The position numbers and the translations under genes were made by a program. The notes under the pieces are model-generated. The model did not search any database. It was not told where the DNA came from and saw only the letters and a list, made by a program, of their open reading frames with translations. A stretch of 64,000 bases of DNA, from positions 682,001 through 746,000 of the forward strand of contig NZ_JADKSG010000002.1 in NCBI RefSeq assembly GCF_015350805.1. Direction: 5' to 3'. This stretch comes from Herbiconiux sp. VKM Ac-1786. Lineage in GTDB: Bacteria > Actinomycetota > Actinomycetes > Actinomycetales > Microbacteriaceae. Of this stretch, positions 18,582 through 29,611 are shown one piece after another (the stretch's first letter is position 1; each line of letters opens with the position of its first letter).

Positions 18582-21056
18582 ATGACAGCAGCGAAGAACG
18601 ATCCGTCCGAAGCCGTCGTCGAGAAGATCCTCGACGTCGACGTCTCGACGGAGATGCAGGACTCGTTCCTCGAGTACGCGTACTCGGTCATCTACTCCCG
18701 CGCCCTGCCCGATGCCCGCGACGGCCTGAAGCCCGTGCAGCGCCGCATCCTGTACATGATGAGCGACATGGGCCTGCGCCCCGACCGCGGGCACGTCAAG
18801 AGCGCCCGCGTCGTGGGCGAGGTGATGGGCAAGCTGCACCCGCACGGCGACACCGCCATCTACGACGCCCTGGTGCGCCTCGCGCAGTCCTGGACGATGC
18901 GGGTGCCGCTCGTCGACGGCCACGGCAACTTCGGCTCGCTCGACGACGGCCCCGCCGCCTCGCGCTACACCGAGGCCCGCCTCGACGCGGCCGCCATGGC
19001 CATGGTCGAGAACCTCGACGAGGACGTCGTGGAGTTCGTGCCGAACTACGACAACCAGCTCACCCAGCCCGACGTGCTCCCCGCGGCCATCCCGAACCTG
19101 CTCGTCAACGGCACCACGGGCATCGCGGTCGGCATGGCCACCAACATGGCCCCGCACAACCTGATCGAGGTCGTCGCCGGGGCCCGCTACCTGCTCGAGC
19201 ACCCCGATGCCTCGCTCGACGAGCTGATGTCGTTCATCCCGGGCCCCGACCTGCCGGGCGGCGGCACCATCGTGGGCCTGGCCGGCGTGCGCGACGCCTA
19301 CGAGACGGGCCGCGGCGCCTTCAAGACCCGGGCGAAGGTCTCGGTCGAGAACCTCACCGCCCGCAAGGTGGGCCTCGTCGTCACCGAGCTGCCCTACCTC
19401 GTCGGCCCCGAGAAGGTGATCGCCAAGATCAAGGACGGCGTCACCTCGAAGAAGCTGCAGGGCATCAGCGACGTCACCGACCTCACCGACCGCACCCACG
19501 GGCTGCGCCTCGTGATCGGCATCAAGACCGGCTTCAACCCGGAGGCGGTGCTCGAGCAGCTCTACAAGCTCACCCCGCTCGAGGACGGCTTCAACATCAA
19601 CAACGTGGCGCTCGTCGACGGCGGGCCGCTGACGCTCGGCCTCCGCGACCTGCTGATCGTCTACATCAACCACCGCATCGACGTGGTCACCCGGCGCACC
19701 CGCTACCGTCTGGCGCGCCGTAACGAGCGCCTGCACCTCGTCGAGGGTCTCCTGATCGCCATCCTCGACATCGACGAGGTGATCCAGGTCATCCGCACGA
19801 GCGACGACAGCGAGGCCGCCCGCGCCCGCCTGATCGAGGTCTTCGAGCTGAGCGTGCTGCAGGCCGACTACATCCTCGAGCTGCGCCTGCGCCGCCTGAC
19901 GAAGTTCTCGCTGATCGAGCTCGAGGCCGAGCGCGACCGCCTGCGCGAGGAGATCGCGCAGCTCGAGGCGCTGCTCGGCGACCCCGCGCTCATCCGCCGG
20001 GCCGTCTCCGACGAGCTCGAGGAGGTGGCCGAGAAGTTCGGCACCCCGCGCCGCACCCTGCTCACCGAGGCGCGACCGCAGGCGCCGGCCTCACGGCGCT
20101 CGCAGCCCGTGCTCGAGGTCGCCGATGCGCCGTGCACCGTCTACCTCAGCACGACGGGCCGCGTGCTCCGGGTCGACCGGGAGGAGCCGGCGGACGGCTC
20201 CGGCGGGTCGACGGGCCCCGTCGTGGGCGCCCGCCGCAGCAAGCACGACGCCATCCGCAGCGAGGTCACGACGACCCGCCGCTCCGAGGTCGGGGCGATC
20301 ACCGACACGGGCCGGCTGATCAGGATGCCCGTGCTCGACCTCCCCGCGGCGCCCGCCAACTCGGTGCAGCTCGGTGCCGGGGTGCGCGTCAGCGACTACC
20401 TCGCCCTCGACGCCAAGCGCGAGAAGATCGTGGGCCTGGTCTCGCTCACCTCGGCGGTCCCCGTCGCGCTCGGCACGGCCCAGGGGGTCGTCAAGCGCGT
20501 CGCCGCCGGCGCCTACCCCGCGAAGCCCGACTTCGAGGTCATCGCGCTGAAGCCCGGCGACAAGGTCGTCGGCGTCGCGCAGCACTCCGAGGACGACGAG
20601 CTGGTCTTCATCACCTCGGATGCGCAGCTGCTGCGCTTCTTCCAGGCGAGCGTGCGGCCGCAGGGCGTCACCGCGGGCGGCATGGCCGGCATCAACCTGG
20701 GCTCCGGCGCCTCGGTGATCTTCTTCGGCTCGGTGCCCGACACGGGAGACGCCGTCGTCGTGACGATCGCCGGGAGCACCGCGACGCTCGCCGGCGCCGA
20801 CCCGGGCACCGGCAAGGTGTCGGAGTTCACCGAGTTCCCGCCGAAGGGCCGGGCGACCGGCGGCGTGCGGGCCCACCGCTTCCTGAAGGGCGAGGACCTG
20901 CTCACCGTGGCCTGGGCGGGGCCGGCTCCGGCGCTCGCCGTCGCCAACGACGGCGCCGCCCGGACCCTCCCCGAGGTCGGGGCCCGGCGCGATGCGTCGG
21001 GAGTGGGTCTGGGCGGCGTCGTGGGGTCGGTCGGGGCCGAGCGCTCAGCGAGCTGA
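18582..21056 (+). CDS. parC: DNA topoisomerase IV / gyrase-type subunit A
   Basis: Type IIA topoisomerase breaking-rejoining subunit, which passes one duplex through another with ParE. The 824-residue protein has the winged-helix core ([14 protein letters not shown]), the catalytic tyrosine in [10 protein letters not shown], a coiled-coil arm, and a C-terminal beta-pinwheel (residues about 500-820) with repeats such as [11 protein letters not shown]. No canonical gyrase GyrA-box is obvious, and the paired parE 0.5 kb downstream supports topoisomerase IV rather than gyrase. The ATG at 18582 gives [12 protein letters not shown]; an upstream in-frame ATG at 18555 is less likely. Confidence 0.9.
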
Positions 21057-21083
21057 CGGAGCGGCGAGCTGACGGAGCGGCTG

Positions 21084-21311
21084 CTACTTCGAGAGCAGCT
21101 TCGCGGACTCGTCGTGCCAGCCGGTCGCGACCTGGGAGAGCTTCTCCTGGTACTTGCGACCGTGGTGGGCGCAGAACAGGAGCTCTCCGCCGGACGGCAT
21201 GTCGACTCGGATGTAGGCCTGCGCGCCGCAGCTGTCGCAGCGGTCGGCGGCGGTGAGCTGGTAGGCGTTCTCGATGTCGGAGACAGCCTCGGTGTCGGCG
21301 ATTGACTGCAT
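21084..21311 (-). CDS. DUF7455 family small zinc-finger-like protein
   Basis: A 75-residue protein. Its core LTAADRCDSCGAQAYIRV followed by LLFCAHHGRKY carries CxxC plus CxHH, a plausible zinc site. This family (DUF7455) is common in actinobacteria next to topoisomerase IV or sigma-factor genes; the function is unknown. AGGAGCAGAAG immediately before the ATG at 21311 sets the start; the longer in-frame reading to 21353 has no such site. Confidence 0.85.
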   Translation of the reverse strand: MQSIADTEAVSDIENAYQLTAADRCDSCGAQAYIRVDMPSGGELLFCAHHGRKYQEKLSQVATGWHDESAKLLSK

Positions 21312-21486
21312 CTTCTGCTCCTTAGCTGCTCGGGCGGATCGGGTTACCTGCAATCAAAGCACCGATTGGGGTGGCCTCGTCGCCAATGCCCCGTGTTTCG
21401 CTCTGCGCGTACCGTGCATCCGGTATCTCGGCCTCGGGCCTCGGGGTCCGCCTGTGTGGCGCGGCAGGGCGGCTCCGCCCAGCGAT

Positions 21487-21492
21487 TACCCT
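21487..21492 (+). promoter_or_regulatory. Probable -10 box for parE
   Basis: TACCCT at 21487-21492 would start a short leader before the parE ribosome binding site GAAGGAG at 21527-21533. Confidence 0.35.
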
Positions 21493-21538
21493 GGACGAGG
21501 AGGCCGACGTGCTCTCCGCGAACCACGAAGGAGACCCG

Positions 21539-23626
<2,088 letters not shown>

Positions 23627-23650
23627 CGCGACGCCAGGCCGTCCCCTCCG

Positions 23651-24415
23651 CTACTCGGAAAGGGGGCTGGCCGCGATCGTGGCGCGCGCCTGGCGGGCGC
23701 TCTCGTCGACGAGGCGGAGCGACTCGGGGGCCGGGTCGGTGTACTCGAGGCCTCGGCGCAGGCGCGCCGTGTCGAGCAGCGAGTCGGCGAGGGCCGGGTT
23801 GTTGGCGAGCACCGGGCCGTGCATGTGGGTGCCGAGGAGGTTGTCCTCCCAGAAGCCCTCCTCGCCCGGGGTCTCGGAGTTGCCGCGGCCGTAGACGACC
23901 CGGCCGAGCGTGCCGTGCGGACCGACGTCGACGAACGAGCCGCGGTTCTCGAAGCCCACGATCGGGCCGATCCGCGGCGAGTCGAGCACGAAGTCGCCCA
24001 CGACGCGGGTTCCGCCGTGGCGGGTCGCGACCGGGAACACCGAGGCGCCCTCGAGCACCTGGCCCGACTCCAGCGCGATCGTCTGACCGAGCAGCTGGAA
24101 CCCGGCACCGATGGCGAGCACGGGCCGGCCGTCGTCGGCCAGCGCCCGCAGGTCGCCGGCGATCGCCACGACGAGCGGATGCGCGATCAGCTCGGCCGAG
24201 ACCGGACCGCTGCCGATGAAGACCAGGTCGGCGTCGTCGAACCGCGACCGCACCGCGCTGTCGTCGGGGCCGTCGTAGCTGAGCACCTCGACCGGCAGGC
24301 CCCGGGCCTCGGCGCGCCGGCGCAGGATCTCGACGTTGCCGCTCTCGCCGTTCAGCCCGAGCAGCCGCGGGAACAGGTGCAGGATGCGCAGCGCACCCGT
24401 CGAGGCCGCGCTCAT
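23651..24415 (-). CDS. gatD: GatD-like type 1 glutamine amidotransferase lacking its catalytic cysteine
   Basis: GatD partners MurT in lipid II isoglutaminyl synthase: it normally hydrolyses glutamine and hands ammonia to MurT, which amidates D-isoglutamate in peptidoglycan stem peptides. The 254-residue product has the whole CobB/CobQ-like fold: ILHLFPRLLGLNGESGNVEIL at the start (in family position), VGFENRG and NLLGTHMHGPVL with catalytic His199. The nucleophile elbow, usually AICGGYQ-like, reads LAIGAGFQLLG: residue 103 is glycine (codon GGT, 24107-24109), not cysteine. Canonical glutaminase activity should therefore be absent. Its ATG overlaps the murT stop (ATGA). Confidence 0.88.
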   Translation of the reverse strand: MSAASTGALRILHLFPRLLGLNGESGNVEILRRRAEARGLPVEVLSYDGPDDSAVRSRFDDADLVFIGSGPVSAELIAHPLVVAIAGDLRALADDGRPVLAIGAGFQLLGQTIALESGQVLEGASVFPVATRHGGTRVVGDFVLDSPRIGPIVGFENRGSFVDVGPHGTLGRVVYGRGNSETPGEEGFWEDNLLGTHMHGPVLANNPALADSLLDTARLRRGLEYTDPAPESLRLVDESARQARATIAASPLSE

Positions 24416-25776
24416 GCCGCTCCCCCGCCCTCGAGCTCCTTGAAGCCCAGGATCTTGCGGATGCCCATCATCTGCTCGTAGTTCAGGATCATCACCTTGT
24501 GTCCGGTGGCCGGCTTCGGAAGCGCGAGGAACGCCTTCAGCGCCGCGCGCACGTCGAGGTCGACCGAGCCGACCGGGATGCCGAGGTAGCCGAAGCGCGT
24601 GGCGAACTGCCACGCCTTGGAGCCCGTGACGCCGTCGACGTGGTCGAGGGCCGAGAAGTCGATGTCCCAGATCCACGACGGATCGGGCGTGCCCTCGTCG
24701 ACCGCGAGGAAGACCTGCTCGGGCGCCGACTCGAGCGAGTCGAGGTTGAGCTGCAGGCTCGCCGGGTTCTTCATCATGATGATCTCGATCTGCTCGCCGT
24801 CGACGACGAGCATCTCGCCCCGCCCGTAGACGGTGGCGAGCGAGTCGAGCGCCTGGCTGACGAGCTCCGGACGGAAGCGGTCGCCGAGCACGCTGCGGGC
24901 GGTCGCGGCGGCACCGGCCGCGTCGAGCGCGTAGTGCAGGCCGCGGGACGGGAGCTTGACCTCGATCAGGGTGCGATCCTCCGGCGAGCCGGCCACCGCA
25001 TCCGTCGACCCGGCCGACGCGGAGGTCGTGCCCGCGTCGAGCGTCGCCTTCTCGATGGCCAGGGTGGCGCGGCTGCCGGTGAGGGCCACCACCTCGACCG
25101 CGGCCGGCCGGGAGCCGGGCTTCGCGCCGGCGTCGCCGAAGCGGTCGGCCGAGGCGACGCCGTGGCTGGCCGGCTCGACGAGCTCGGGCACTCCGCCGAA
25201 GAACGAGACCGCGCGGCCGGAGTGGGCGGGGATGCGGGTGTCGAGGTCGACCAGGAAGTTGTCCTCCCGGTTGAGGATCAGGCCGTCGGTCGACGTCGCC
25301 GCCACCCGGGCCAGCATCGCGGCGACGCGATCGGGCTCGTGGTAGCGGTTCAGCTGGTCGATCTGGATGTTCAGCAGCAGCACCGTCTTGGGCTTCAGCA
25401 GCTCGGCGAGCCGGGTGCCGTAGCCCTCGTCGACCTCGAGGATCGCGATGTCGGCGTCGAGCCGGCCGCCCACCGAGACCTCGGAGAGCAGCGCCGAGGC
25501 GATGCCCTGCGGCAGGTTGCCGCCGGAGGGGTTGGTGAAGACCTTCAGGCCGTGGGCCCGGATGATCGCCGCCAGCATGTTCGTGGTGGTCGACTTGCCG
25601 TTCGAGCCCGACACCGCGACGACGCCGTCGGGGATGGCGGCGATGGTGCGCTCGAGGAAGCCCGGGTCGATGCGCAGGGCGATGTTGCCGGGGATGGCCG
25701 AGCCGCCGCCGCGGAGGCGTGCGGCGACCCGGACGGCCCGTCCGACGAGGACGGCGGCCGTGGTGCGGACTGTCAC
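24412..25776 (-). CDS. murT: MurT-like Mur ligase (DUF1727) without the Cys4 zinc ribbon
   Basis: Mur-ligase family protein that activates the alpha-carboxyl of D-Glu in lipid II with ATP. The 454-residue product has the P-loop SGSNGKSTTTNM (Lys61), the central domain (LLNIQIDQLNRYHEPDRV) and the DUF1727 C-terminal domain with the Asp-rich SWIWDIDFSALDHVDG near residue 370. Family members such as those of Staphylococcus and Streptococcus carry a Cys4 zinc ribbon in the central domain; this protein contains no cysteine, and residues 195-270 are instead Ala/Gly/Ser-rich. The GTG at 25776 is four bases after the sigA stop. With the Cys-less GatD it forms an unusual pair. Confidence 0.88.
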   Translation of the reverse strand: MTVRTTAAVLVGRAVRVAARLRGGGSAIPGNIALRIDPGFLERTIAAIPDGVVAVSGSNGKSTTTNMLAAIIRAHGLKVFTNPSGGNLPQGIASALLSEVSVGGRLDADIAILEVDEGYGTRLAELLKPKTVLLLNIQIDQLNRYHEPDRVAAMLARVAATSTDGLILNREDNFLVDLDTRIPAHSGRAVSFFGGVPELVEPASHGVASADRFGDAGAKPGSRPAAVEVVALTGSRATLAIEKATLDAGTTSASAGSTDAVAGSPEDRTLIEVKLPSRGLHYALDAAGAAATARSVLGDRFRPELVSQALDSLATVYGRGEMLVVDGEQIEIIMMKNPASLQLNLDSLESAPEQVFLAVDEGTPDPSWIWDIDFSALDHVDGVTGSKAWQFATRFGYLGIPVGSVDLDVRAALKAFLALPKPATGHKVMILNYEQMMGIRKILGFKELEGGGAA

Positions 25777-25780
25777 CGGC

Positions 25781-27103
25781 CTACTCGAGGTAGTCGCGGA
25801 GCGACTGCGAGCGGGACGGGTGGCGGAGCTTGGCCATGGTCTTCGACTCGATCTGGCGGATGCGCTCGCGCGTGACCCCGAAGGTGTCGCCGATCTGGTC
25901 GAGGGTCTTCGGCATGCCGTCGCCCAGGCCGAAGCGCATGCGGATGACGCCGGCCTCGCGCTCGGAGAGCGAGTCGAGCAGCGACTCGAGCTGCTTCTGC
26001 AGCATGGTGAAGCCCACCGCGTCGGCCGGCACGACCGCCTCGGTGTCCTCGATCAGGTCGCCGAACTCGCTGTCGCCGTCCTCGCCGAGGGGCGTGTGCA
26101 GCGAGATGGGCTCGCGGCCGTACTTCTGCACCTCGACGACCTTCTCGGGCGTCATGTCGAGCTCGCGGCTGAGCTCTTCCGGCGTGGGCTCGCGGCCCAG
26201 GTCCTGCAGCATCTGGCGCTGAACGCGGGCCAGCTTGTTGATCACCTCGACCATGTGCACAGGGATGCGGATGGTGCGGGCCTGGTCGGCCATGGCGCGG
26301 GTGATGGCCTGACGGATCCACCACGTGGCGTAGGTCGAGAACTTGAAGCCCTTGGTGTAGTCGAACTTCTCGACCGCACGGATGAGACCGAGGTTGCCCT
26401 CCTGGATCAGGTCGAGGAACTGCATGCCGCGACCGGTGTAGCGCTTGGCGAGGCTGACCACGAGGCGGAGGTTCGCCCCGAGCAGGTGGCTCTTCGCGCG
26501 CTGGCCGTCCTTCGCGACCCACTGCAGCTCGCGCTTGAGCTGCGGGGTCATGTTCTCGGTGTTGGCCAGCTTGTCCTCGGCGAACAGACCCGCCTCGATG
26601 CGCATGGCGAGCTCGACCTCTTCGGCCGCGTTCAGGAGCGCGACCTTGCCGATCTGCTTCAGGTAGTCCTTGACCGGGTCGGCGGTGGCGCCCGTGATGG
26701 TGCTGGAGTAGACCGGCACCTCGTCCTCGTCGTCGACGAGCGAGAGCACGAGGGCGCCGGTGGGCAGCGCCTCCTCGGCCGCGGCGGGCTTCGCCGTCTT
26801 GTCGTCGTCGCCGTCGGTGTCGCCCTCGGCCGTGTCGGCGTCGCCCTCGGCGACGGTCTCCGTGTCGGCCTCGACGTCGACCTCGACCTCGGTCTCCTCG
26901 TCGGGCTCGGTCTCGTCGTCGTCGGAGGCCTTGGCCTTGGTGGCGCGCTTGGGGGCGGCCTTCGCCGCGGTCTTCGGCTTGGCGGCGGTCTTGGTGGCCG
27001 GCTTCGCCTTCGCGGCGGGCCGCTTGGCGGCGGGAGCCGCCGTCTCGACCTCGTCGGGCGTCGTCGCCTTCTCGAGGGTGTCTGCGGACTTGGGGGTGGC
27101 CAT
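25781..27103 (-). CDS. sigA: Primary RNA polymerase sigma factor (SigA/HrdB/RpoD)
   Basis: Directs RNA polymerase to housekeeping promoters. The 440-residue protein has a long N-terminal region: Lys/Ala-rich repeats (residues 20-60) then an acidic run (60-105), typical of actinobacterial primary sigma factors. Region 1.2 is [14 protein letters not shown]; region 2 contains [22 protein letters not shown] and [16 protein letters not shown] (-10 recognition and melting); region 4.2 is the helix-turn-helix [14 protein letters not shown] (-35 recognition). The ATG at 27103 has AAAGGTG about eight bases upstream. A 216-base upstream region separates it from the MFS gene, with a CATAAT box on the minus strand at 27271-27276 as a possible -10. 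Confidence 0.95.
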
Positions 27104-27319
27104 TAGTTCACCTTTCACGCCACGCGGCGGGCGGATCGAGCTCGTGGCTCCGGGCGGAGAGCCCACTGCGTGAAGATGTTTTTGGACATTACTAAGACCC
27201 ATGTCAAGTGCCGGTTTCGCGCAGCCTCTGAAAGCGCTGCAACCGTGCACAGGAACGGGTCTTCATATCAATTATGACATGGAAACGGAAGACCGCTCAC
27301 CGTCTCGCCCCCGGACGGG

Positions 27320-28633
27320 TCACCCTCTCCGCTTCCACTTCCTGAGGAGTGCAACCCAGATGGGGCCCACGGATATTCCCTCGTCCTCCTCCATCTTGCG
27401 GCGGGTGCGGCGTCGCGCGCGCAGCAGCATCACGACCCCGAAGCCGATCACGAGGTACTGGACGGAGAAGGCGAGCCGGAAGGCGTCGAGGTCGTAGAGC
27501 GAGCCGCTCCAGCCCGCGTCGAACTGCGCGTCGAGGATCAGGCCGATCAGGAACATGATCACGAAGCTGGCCGTGAAGCCGCCGACGTTGACGATGCCGT
27601 TGGCCGAGCCGAGCGAGCGGATCGGGTTGAACGAGCGGGCGAAGTCGAAGCCGATCAGCGAGCCCGGGCCGCCGACGCCCATCGACACGACGAGCAGCAC
27701 GATCAGCCAGAACGGCGGCACGCCGGGCCACAGCAGCACGGCCGCCCAGACGAGCCCGAGGGTCGCCGTGATGCCGAGCACCAGGTTCGAGCGGCGGAGC
27801 GGGAAGCGCGCGGTCAGGATGCCGAGGATCGGCCCGGCCACGAGTCCGGTGAGCACGATCAGCACGAGCAGCACGGAGGCGGTGCCCTGCTCGATCCCGA
27901 CGGCCGAGACCAGGAAGGGGAAGCCCCAGAACAGCGCGAACGCGGTTCCGGAGGACTGGGTCACGTAGTGCGTCCAGAAGCCCAGCTGGGTGCCCGGGCG
28001 CTTGAGCGTCGTGCCCAGGCCGCGCACGGCATCCTTCACCGACGCGACCCGGGGCTGCTCGGGCACCCCCGCGGGACGGTCGGCGAGGAAGGCGACGCCG
28101 AGCACGAAGCCCGCGAACGAGAGCGAGGCGGCCGCCGCGAACGCCGGCGTCCAGCCGACGTTGTGCAGCACCCAGGCGAACGGCAGGGCGCTCAGGATCT
28201 GCCCGATCGCCCCGATGTTGCCCGTCCACTGCGACAGCAGCGGAACACTGCGGCCCTGGAACCAGGAGTTGATCAGCCGGATCAGGGAGATGAACACGGC
28301 GGCGTCGCCCGCGCCGACGAGGATGCGGCCCGCGATGGCGATACCGATCGACGGGGCGAAGGCGAGCACGAGCTGACCGGCGACCATGATCGCCGAGCCG
28401 GTGGTGATCAGGAGCTTCGGGCCGACCCGGTCGATCAGGAGGCCGATGGGGATCTGCAGGCCGGCGTACACGACCAGCTGCAGCACGGCCAGCGCGGAGA
28501 GCAGGGCGGCCGAGGTCTCGAACCGCTCGGCTGCGTCGACTCCGGCGACACCGAGGGTCGACCGCTGGAGCACCGCCGCCATGTAGGCGAACACGCCGAC
28601 CGCGAAGACGATCCAGGAGCGGCGGGAGTTCAC
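27320..28633 (-). CDS. Major facilitator superfamily transporter
   Basis: A 437-residue membrane protein with about twelve hydrophobic helices and the MFS fold. The loop after helix 2 reads IPIGLLIDRVGPKLL, a version of the GxLaDrxGrk motif. The C-terminal tail is basic. The substrate cannot be told from sequence; similar proteins are often annotated as nitrate/nitrite- or sugar-type MFS without proof. The GTG at 28633 has TAGCAT seven bases upstream and no Shine-Dalgarno, so it is probably leaderless. Confidence 0.85.
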   Translation of the reverse strand: MNSRRSWIVFAVGVFAYMAAVLQRSTLGVAGVDAAERFETSAALLSALAVLQLVVYAGLQIPIGLLIDRVGPKLLITTGSAIMVAGQLVLAFAPSIGIAIAGRILVGAGDAAVFISLIRLINSWFQGRSVPLLSQWTGNIGAIGQILSALPFAWVLHNVGWTPAFAAAASLSFAGFVLGVAFLADRPAGVPEQPRVASVKDAVRGLGTTLKRPGTQLGFWTHYVTQSSGTAFALFWGFPFLVSAVGIEQGTASVLLVLIVLTGLVAGPILGILTARFPLRRSNLVLGITATLGLVWAAVLLWPGVPPFWLIVLLVVSMGVGGPGSLIGFDFARSFNPIRSLGSANGIVNVGGFTASFVIMFLIGLILDAQFDAGWSGSLYDLDAFRLAFSVQYLVIGFGVVMLLRARRRTRRKMEEDEGISVGPIWVALLRKWKRRG

Positions 28634-28640
28634 TGCGCCA

Positions 28641-28646
28641 ATGCTA
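28641..28646 (-). promoter_or_regulatory. -10 box of the leaderless MFS promoter
   Basis: On the minus strand TAGCAT is followed by seven bases (TGGCGCA) and the GTG start at 28633. Confidence 0.5.
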
Positions 28647-28684
28647 CTCCGGGCCGGTCAGGCGCCGGGCGGAACGGGCGTCCG

Positions 28685-29611
28685 TCAGGCGGAGCGGCCG
28701 TCGTCGTCGCCGAAGCGGTTGCCCGCCAGGAAGCGCTCGAGCTCGTCGGCGATCTCGTCGGCCGAGGGCAGCTCGCCGTCGACGTCGGTGAGCGGGGAGC
28801 GCACGCCGTTGCCCTCCATGTAGGCGTCGTGGCGCTCCTCGAGGGTCGTCACCAGCCGGGCCAGCTCGGTGTTCGACTGCACCTGCTCGTCGATCTTGCC
28901 GAGGAATACCCGACCCTCCTCACGGAGGCGGTCGGTGGGGAAGATCAGGCTGGTGGCCGCGCTCACGCTCTCGACCGCCACGAGGGCGGCGGTGGGGTAC
29001 TCGGTGTCGGCGAGGTAGTGCGGCACGAGCAGCACGAACCCGGCGATCGGATGCCCGAGCTCCTGCAGGCGGTACTCCACCAGGTGGAGAGCGTTCGCCG
29101 GCGCCTGGGTCGTGGGCTTCCAGACCGAGAGCGCGTCGATCAGCTCGGAGCGGTTGCCGCTGACGGTCACGCGCACCGGACGGGTGTGCGGCACCGGCAT
29201 CGGGATGGCGTGCACCCACGTGGTGGTGCTCACGGCGAACAGCTGCACCAGCTCGATCACGGCGGCCGAGAAGCGCTCCCACTGGAAGTCGGGCTCGAAG
29301 CCGTTGAGGAACAGGAAGCGCTGCCCGATCTCGTCGGTCATCAGGTGCAGGCGCAGGGCCTGCGGCTGGTAGTCGCTGATGTGGTCCTGATCGAAGGTGA
29401 TGATCGGCCGGCGGGCCCGGTAGTCGAGCAGGATGTCGGGGTCGAACTCGGCGACGACCGTCGACTCGAGCGTGTCGAGGAGGTACTCGCCGAACTGCGC
29501 CACGGCGCCACCGGCGTCGGTGAAGCCCGACAGGGCGGCCACGAGCTGGAGCCCGTCGGGCACGAGGCCCGGTTCGGCCACGACGTCATAGAGACCGCTC
29601 GGATTGTCCAT
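28685..29611 (-). CDS. PAC2 family protein
   Basis: A 308-residue protein of the PAC2 (proteasome assembly chaperone 2-like) family, recognised by LVAALSGFTDAGGAVAQFG near the N-terminus, ITFDQDHISDYQP, and LLVPHYLADTEYPTAALV. In bacteria the family is found in actinobacteria, some of which have proteasomes; its bacterial role is unproven. The C-terminal 90 residues are polar. TAGAGT six bases before the ATG at 29611 and no Shine-Dalgarno suggest a leaderless mRNA. It is divergent from pepA. Confidence 0.85.
   Translation of the reverse strand: MDNPSGLYDVVAEPGLVPDGLQLVAALSGFTDAGGAVAQFGEYLLDTLESTVVAEFDPDILLDYRARRPIITFDQDHISDYQPQALRLHLMTDEIGQRFLFLNGFEPDFQWERFSAAVIELVQLFAVSTTTWVHAIPMPVPHTRPVRVTVSGNRSELIDALSVWKPTTQAPANALHLVEYRLQELGHPIAGFVLLVPHYLADTEYPTAALVAVESVSAATSLIFPTDRLREEGRVFLGKIDEQVQSNTELARLVTTLEERHDAYMEGNGVRSPLTDVDGELPSADEIADELERFLAGNRFGDDDGRSA

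Follow-up and report, generated by a model that had tools for sequence, protein, structure and literature searches.

A MurT-GatD pair without the catalytic cysteine of GatD, next to sigA in Herbiconiux, as a candidate amino-acid ligase for B-type peptidoglycan

In B-type walls the D-Glu alpha-carboxyl of the stem peptide carries the cross-bridge, and this peptidoglycan type has reportedly served as a taxonomic marker since Schleifer and Kandler in 1972. Building such a bridge requires that the alpha-carboxyl of the stem D-Glu be activated and then attacked by an amine; bridge enzymes of the Fem and D-Asp types activate the incoming amino acid instead. In one open-access library we found no paper naming an enzyme that builds the D-Glu-linked bridge of B-type peptidoglycan. 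The locus described here comes from Herbiconiux, a genus of the Microbacteriaceae, a bacterial family of soil and plants.

The closest described gene pair is MurT-GatD, the lipid II isoglutaminyl synthase of Staphylococcus aureus and Streptococcus pneumoniae. Excerpts of the S. aureus work report that the GatD substitutions C94G and C94S abolish lipid II amidation with glutamine (PMC6113224, PMC3266927), that the MurT/GatD-C94G pair keeps an NH3-dependent activity at pH 8.5 which is absent at pH 7.5 (PMC3266927), and that MurT without GatD is inactive (PMC3266927). Since the C94G pair still uses NH3 and MurT alone is inactive, a glutaminase-dead GatD can serve MurT with an outside amine. The accessible part of a pangenomic survey describes bacterial MurT as mostly single copy and archaeal MurT-like genes as lacking GatD; in that part we found no mention of a GatD without the cysteine (PMC11915815).

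We analysed a window of 64,000 nucleotides from Herbiconiux sp. VKM Ac-1786 (contig NZ_JADKSG010000002.1), in which a murT-gatD pair overlapping by 4 nt fills the interval, or slot, between sigA and parE. No curated RNA families were found in positions 21000-28800. The features are as follows.

21371..23626, plus strand: parE/gyrB-like topoisomerase ORF, convergent, one border of the slot
23651..24415, minus strand: gatD, class-I glutamine amidotransferase-like subunit (PF07685) without the catalytic cysteine, 254 aa
23819..23821, minus strand: His199 of gatD (in GTHMHGP), equivalent of S. aureus His189, kept in the window
24107..24109, minus strand: gatD codon 103, GGT (Gly), inside AIGAGFQLLG, the site of the catalytic Cys94 of S. 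aureus GatD
24412..25776, minus strand: murT, Mur-ligase-like subunit (PF08245, PF08353), 454 aa with zero cysteines
24682..24684, minus strand: Asp365 of murT, first Asp of DPSW, equivalent of S. aureus Asp349
25426..25440, minus strand: acidic motif LEVDE of murT, Mg binding by analogy with MurC and pneumococcal MurT
25588..25614, minus strand: ATP-binding motif VSGSNGKST of murT, mostly GTNGKTT in the Cys-type sister clade
25781..27250, minus strand: sigA ORF (primary sigma factor), the other border of the slot, 4 nt upstream of murT

The original prediction, that glycine stands in for the catalytic cysteine at this codon while the rest of the GatD fold is intact, His199 and the VGFENRG region included, was confirmed. 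A phmmer alignment paired Gly103 with the cysteine of S. aureus GatD (ICGGYQ) and with that of streptococcal GatD. The protein has the class-I amidotransferase fold, as judged by its PF07685 match (67.9 bits, cut-off 27), by an AlphaFold2 model with a mean pLDDT of 95.8, and by Foldseek, whose top PDB matches were the S. aureus GatD chains 6gs2/6h5e (TM 0.86-0.87). The other marks of a MurT-GatD system are present as well: the catalytic His of GatD, the Asp349 equivalent of MurT, and an adjacent MurT with an ATP-binding motif and a MurT_C domain. Against the NCBIfam equivalog models for GatD and MurT, which may simply be tuned to Bacillota, the scores fell below the cut-offs (138.8 of 450 and 91.3 of 400; 111.4 of 800 and 96 of 800 bits). 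By analogy with C94G and C94S, which abolish glutamine use in S. aureus, this GatD should be dead as a glutaminase, as had been proposed.

The MurT model reached a mean pLDDT of 91.3 (AlphaFold2), and among PDB structures Foldseek matched it to S. pyogenes MurT (9sq9/9sqj, TM 0.58-0.61) and S. aureus MurT (6h5e/6gs2, TM 0.45). Regular expressions for the ATP-binding and acidic motifs, G..GK[ST] and E-x-D-E, found them in 159 and 156 of 160 loci, respectively. A second MurT that might act as the true amidase was sought in the same genome and none was found, the genome giving one MurT_C match and one MurT at E 1e-40.

All 11 genomes read from the genus (coded g1) have glycine at this position, and so do all 10 named near relatives (L001-L010); the two sets overlap, L004 and G250, for example, sharing murT coordinates. 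Among the 10 genus genomes whose codons were compared, the glycine is written GGC in six, GGT in two and GGA in two, and the median dN/dS within the genus is 0.25 for gatD and 0.154 for murT (45 of 45 pairs). Given the agreement of all genus genomes, the synonymous codon variation and the dN/dS of gatD, we reject a sequencing error or a pseudogene; the statement that gatD is not a decaying gene was borne out, the gene being under selection. A contig search with a single protein returned 15 loci, of which 10 belong to close relatives; among named relatives the best come from Herbiconiux at 77-92% identity, with two of the ten filed under other names. Some close relatives carry extra ORFs between gatD and parE (L006:6783-11972, L004:6743-7842), which by eye look glycosyltransferase-like, ATP-grasp-like and cell-wall-binding-repeat-like.

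The GatD column was read in 180 coded genomes, 102 of them in family f1, which we took as Microbacteriaceae because Herbiconiux belongs there (PMC10011130, in excerpt), and 78 in 25 other families; the samples are not random, f1 being represented by roughly a genome from each genus together with the closest matches and the other families by best matches plus one or a few genomes each. GatD lacked the cysteine in 88 of the 102 f1 genomes (Gly alone in 68, Ala alone in 10, others in 10), while 12 had the Cys form only and two both types. Outside f1, 75 of 78 genomes keep the cysteine, the exceptions being Arg in f7 (L156), Asp in f34 (L233) and one f21 sequence unreadable at a contig end. A general link to Microbacteriaceae needs correcting, as the family is not uniformly Cys-less: by genus (68 read) 56 are Cys-less only, nine are Cys-type only and three have both (g16, g54, g66), and further genomes are without murT. 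Pseudoclavibacter soli has a Cys-type pair only. The His189 equivalent is His in 74 of 116 Cys-less f1 loci, another residue in 34 and a gap in eight. Column assignment is unsure for the most divergent GatD rows (e.g., L105, L107, L109, L110 and L242); L227 was unreadable, at a contig end, and L116 was assigned Cys by hand.

On a FastTree phylogeny of concatenated MurT and GatD, the main Cys-less group forms one clade (support 1.0, 58 of 125 rows); 36 of 161 loci had been left out as window copies, near-identical rows or, in the case of L111, as a match too weak to keep (25 bits); L016 and L112 are copies of the window. In an IQ-TREE analysis of 94 rows (31 of the 125 left out), from which the Cys and His columns were omitted, the same group falls on one side of a branch with an SH-aLRT of 100 (45 of 94 rows). 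Its sister is a Cys clade without the zinc ribbon. CxxC pairs are absent from most of that sister clade too, and we rejected zinc-ribbon loss as part of the change. The 94-row tree needs three changes of the Cys state: in the main clade, in f7 and in a second clade of five f1 rows with long branches and unsure placement. A second Cys-less MurT-GatD lineage was seen in L103, L104, L106, L108, L110 and, by motif only, L245; in its GatDs the cysteine is replaced by His, Gln, Asn or Gly, most of its MurTs have CxxC pairs, and L103, L104 and L106 adjoin sigA.

In a count of loci within the available flanks, some of them from one genome, sigA adjoins 122 of the 128 Cys-less loci in f1 or named Microbacteriaceae. 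It adjoins none of the 28 Cys-type loci in f1 or the named set, which takes in four named loci from other phyla or classes, and none of the 79 loci in other families. Cysteine does occur in relatives, in part, but in another clade and away from sigA in the loci read. The gap from sigA to murT has a median of 10 bp between matches (63 loci with all four genes). The six exceptions to adjacency are L069, L160, L108, L110, L240 and L245; for L069 and L160 sigA sits further upstream (visible in L318 and L317), and near L108 none was found within 14 kb around (L319). The eight Cys-type genera examined all lack a cassette at this place, with 5 to ~620 bp separating sigA from parE.

Genomes of the family without murT often fill the slot with a different ligase. 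sigA was found in 18 of the 19 murT-less f1 genomes searched, and in 13 of these 18 the slot holds a CofE-like ORF (L276-L281, L285-L287, L291, L292, L294, L310), which matches PF01996 with 50.4 bits in the G075 copy (cut-off 25). By tblastn, 11 of the 13 slots also have an ATP-grasp ORF (PF14397, 137 bits) and six an Alr-like ORF (PF01168). Elsewhere, sigA lies directly by parE (G019, G051, G062), the sequence stops at a contig end (G044), or the slot contains transporter-like ORFs as read by eye (G049). The CofE-like start lies at most 60 bp from the sigA match in 12 of 14 genomes compared.

Across 398 f1 genomes, murT of either type was present in 319 and the CofE-like gene in 65; three had both, 62 the CofE-like gene only and 17 neither, some of these 17 being incomplete. 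Put differently, 62 of the 79 murT-less genomes have the CofE-like gene, an avoidance with a Fisher p of 9e-53 when kinship is ignored. murT was scored with profile A2 at E ≤1e-40 over the best four first-look candidates per genome, and the CofE-like gene at E ≤1e-20 over the best seven. Since 16 of the 21 genera with the CofE-like gene also have species with murT (of the Cys type in g14), the change between the two must have happened many times. Identity of the CofE-like protein to the query reaches only 39-40% in the genomes with both ligases (G053, G123 and G147); in G123 and G053 the two genes are side by side, the order in G123 being sigA-cofE-murT-gatD-alr-parE.

The slot ligase is not a CofE equivalog by TIGR01916, where the G020 copy scored 31.3 of 180.65 bits. 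In a sample of the order, four of 69 genomes, all from f11, have a relative of it with 48-54% identity. There (L305-L308) the CofE-like part is the end of a longer ORF and itself falls below the Pfam cut-off; the front is asparagine synthase by Pfam in two of the three scanned (L306, 238 bits; L305, 49.9 bits; not L307). Folylpolyglutamate synthase is Mur-ligase-like. CofE joins glutamate to a carboxyl terminus, and the non-homologous folylpolyglutamate synthase does likewise (PMC10861534, in excerpt); with such a pair of unrelated enzymes sharing one chemistry, the alternation of MurT with a CofE-like ligase is chemically sensible. Several bacteria use AsnB-type enzymes for amidating their peptidoglycan (PMC8554201, in excerpt), to which the f11 ORF may offer a faint parallel.

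Some slots carry genes that could supply a bridge amino acid. In G020 the slot encodes EctB, diaminobutyrate--2-oxoglutarate transaminase (TIGR02407, 601.8 bits, cut-off 552.2), and tblastn found ectB in the slots of G057 (67% identity) and G625 (75%) and not in the remaining loci examined, many of which cover just part of the slot. The order in G625 is sigA-ectB-murT-gatD(Gly)-alr-parE, with 35 bp between the ectB and murT matches. Among Cys-less f1 genomes with 700 bp or more of sequence downstream, 12 of 62 have an Alr-like ORF adjoining gatD, and the other 50 have no racemase next to it; such an ORF adjoins gatD in none of 12 named Cys-less loci, none of 58 Cys-type genomes and none of six named Cys-type loci. 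Among the 27 genomes searched, all 15 with a slot racemase have a further strong Alr elsewhere. In some loci the slot racemase appears as two neighbouring ORFs (L317:8523-10255, similarly L278 and L292), one with an alanine-racemase N-terminal domain and the other, by eye, resembling a separate second half. The window's own slot has no ectB, racemase or ATP-grasp; its genome has a tandem pair of alanine-racemase-like genes off the slot (L309:4853-6699, G000 contig 1), one of which may serve diaminobutyrate.

The expected B-type wall was found in the literature: the Herbiconiux wall is described as B2-gamma with D- and L-2,4-diaminobutyrate, diaminobutyrate being detected in five strains, in the accessible part of a paper whose species descriptions nonetheless give the 'diamino acids' as alanine, glutamic acid and glycine (PMC10011130). 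Excerpts on other genera give B2-gamma for Subtercola and B2-beta with D-Orn for Frondihabitans (PMC5945732), and B2-beta for Rhodoluna, whose hydrolysate contained the peptides D-Ala-D-Dab and Gly-D-Glu (PMC4156110); an A-type wall is also known to bear glycine at the alpha-carboxyl of D-Glu (PMC3035309, in excerpt). We draw the link of the slot to wall type from Herbiconiux and from gene content.

Because MurT activates the stem carboxyl in the known system and its alternation with a CofE-like ligase makes chemical sense, we propose that the window's murT-gatD encodes an amino-acid ligase rather than an amidase, with GatD in a structural role, a reading to which we give a probability of roughly two in three on the sequence evidence. 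MurT would use ATP to convert the D-Glu alpha-carboxyl of the lipid-linked wall precursor into an acyl phosphate, and the attacking amine would be that of the cross-bridge amino acid, not ammonia; GatD would hydrolyse no glutamine and be kept as the partner that MurT needs for activity. In Herbiconiux the bridge amino acid is probably D-2,4-diaminobutyrate, which we hold less firmly than ligation itself. The acceptor carboxyl, the donor amine and a CofE-like enzyme doing the same step are what we infer from gene context. For the ligase reading we count a clade-wide absence of the cysteine, the selection acting on murT and gatD alike, MurT motifs that are still intact, the position between sigA and parE, the CofE-like alternation, the diaminobutyrate transaminase and racemase genes of some slots, the S. 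aureus C94G pair that still takes NH3 from outside, the B2-gamma wall of Herbiconiux, and the frequent replacement of the GatD His (34 of the 116 Cys-less f1 loci) while the MurT motifs stay. His199 and Asp365 of the window count against it, since a dead triad does not require them. The same goes for the window's slot with its lack of ectB, racemase and ATP-grasp genes, for the 50 of 62 Cys-less genomes in which gatD has no racemase neighbour, and for the three genomes with both ligases and the 17 with neither. The suggestion that MurT-GatD was repurposed for amino-acid attachment is thus partly supported, by a gene neighbourhood that points to ligation; the attachment itself and the amino acid attached are still predictions.

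Three other explanations deserve weighing against the ligase. MurT-GatD and the CofE-like enzyme may act at different steps, as the three genomes with both suggest, or on another carboxyl of the wall or another polymer, for instance at a second bridge residue, the slot merely gathering wall genes; the side-by-side ligases of G123 and G053 and the ATP-grasp ORFs of the slot agree with this, but 62 of the 65 CofE-like genomes are without murT and both kinds of ligase directly follow sigA in most loci compared, and we consider it unlikely. Similarly unlikely, in our estimate, is that the pair has stayed an amidase of the D-Glu alpha-carboxyl despite its dead glutaminase, with MurT drawing on free ammonia or on ammonia from another glutaminase. 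The fold and the MurT motifs are kept, but amidation would block the very carboxyl on which the B-type bridge sits, and the CofE-like alternation and the ectB and racemase neighbours would be left unexplained. The S. aureus C94G pair bears on both sides here, using NH3 at pH 8.5 but not at pH 7.5 (PMC3266927, in excerpt). Least probable, and by our judgement quite remote, is that GatD is a regulatory or scaffold pseudoenzyme in a complex that no longer catalyses, the genes being relics linked to sigA: many GatD sequences of the family are strongly divergent, but the dN/dS medians of both genes, the retained ATP and acidic motifs of MurT and the CofE-like gene standing in for murT in 62 of 79 genomes all speak against relics.

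Taking the ligase reading to the family level, natural alternation with an unrelated CofE-like enzyme would be evidence of equal function. The sigA-parE interval could then be a wall chemotype locus of Microbacteriaceae, holding one of two unrelated bridge ligases, MurT with a dead GatD or the CofE-like enzyme. Either ligase would attach the first amino acid of the bridge to lipid II, at the alpha-carboxyl of D-Glu, and genes for the synthesis or racemisation of this residue would often lie alongside; a cassette passed from one species to another would switch the wall type, and the missing enzyme of B-type peptidoglycan would lie here. We put this wider proposal at even odds. Should Cys-type genera without the cassette, or genomes with neither ligase, prove to have B-type walls, another enzyme does the job there. 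For the B-type bridge the proposal supplies two candidate ligases that can be tested and one small locus to look at; if true, it would also be a clear case of a glutamine amidotransferase that lost its glutaminase, turning an amidase into an amino-acid ligase.

Compared with the MurT-GatD isoglutaminyl synthases of S. aureus and S. pneumoniae, the window has the same gene pair, the same folds, the same ATP and acidic motifs in MurT and the same His199 and Asp365 equivalents; it differs in the glycine at the catalytic cysteine, in its sigA-parE slot, in the absence of zinc-ribbon cysteines and in scores far under the NCBIfam equivalog cut-offs. CofE/FbiB, the F420-0 gamma-glutamyl ligase, shares PF01996 with the alternative ligase of the slot, which stands far under the TIGR01916 equivalog cut-off. 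With MurC-F, archaeal pMur ligases and folylpolyglutamate synthase, MurT shares the Mur-ligase middle domain and, on the reading proposed here for the Herbiconiux pair, the joining of an amino acid's amine to an activated carboxyl; in the available excerpts it differs from them in a truncated N-terminal domain and in working with GatD.
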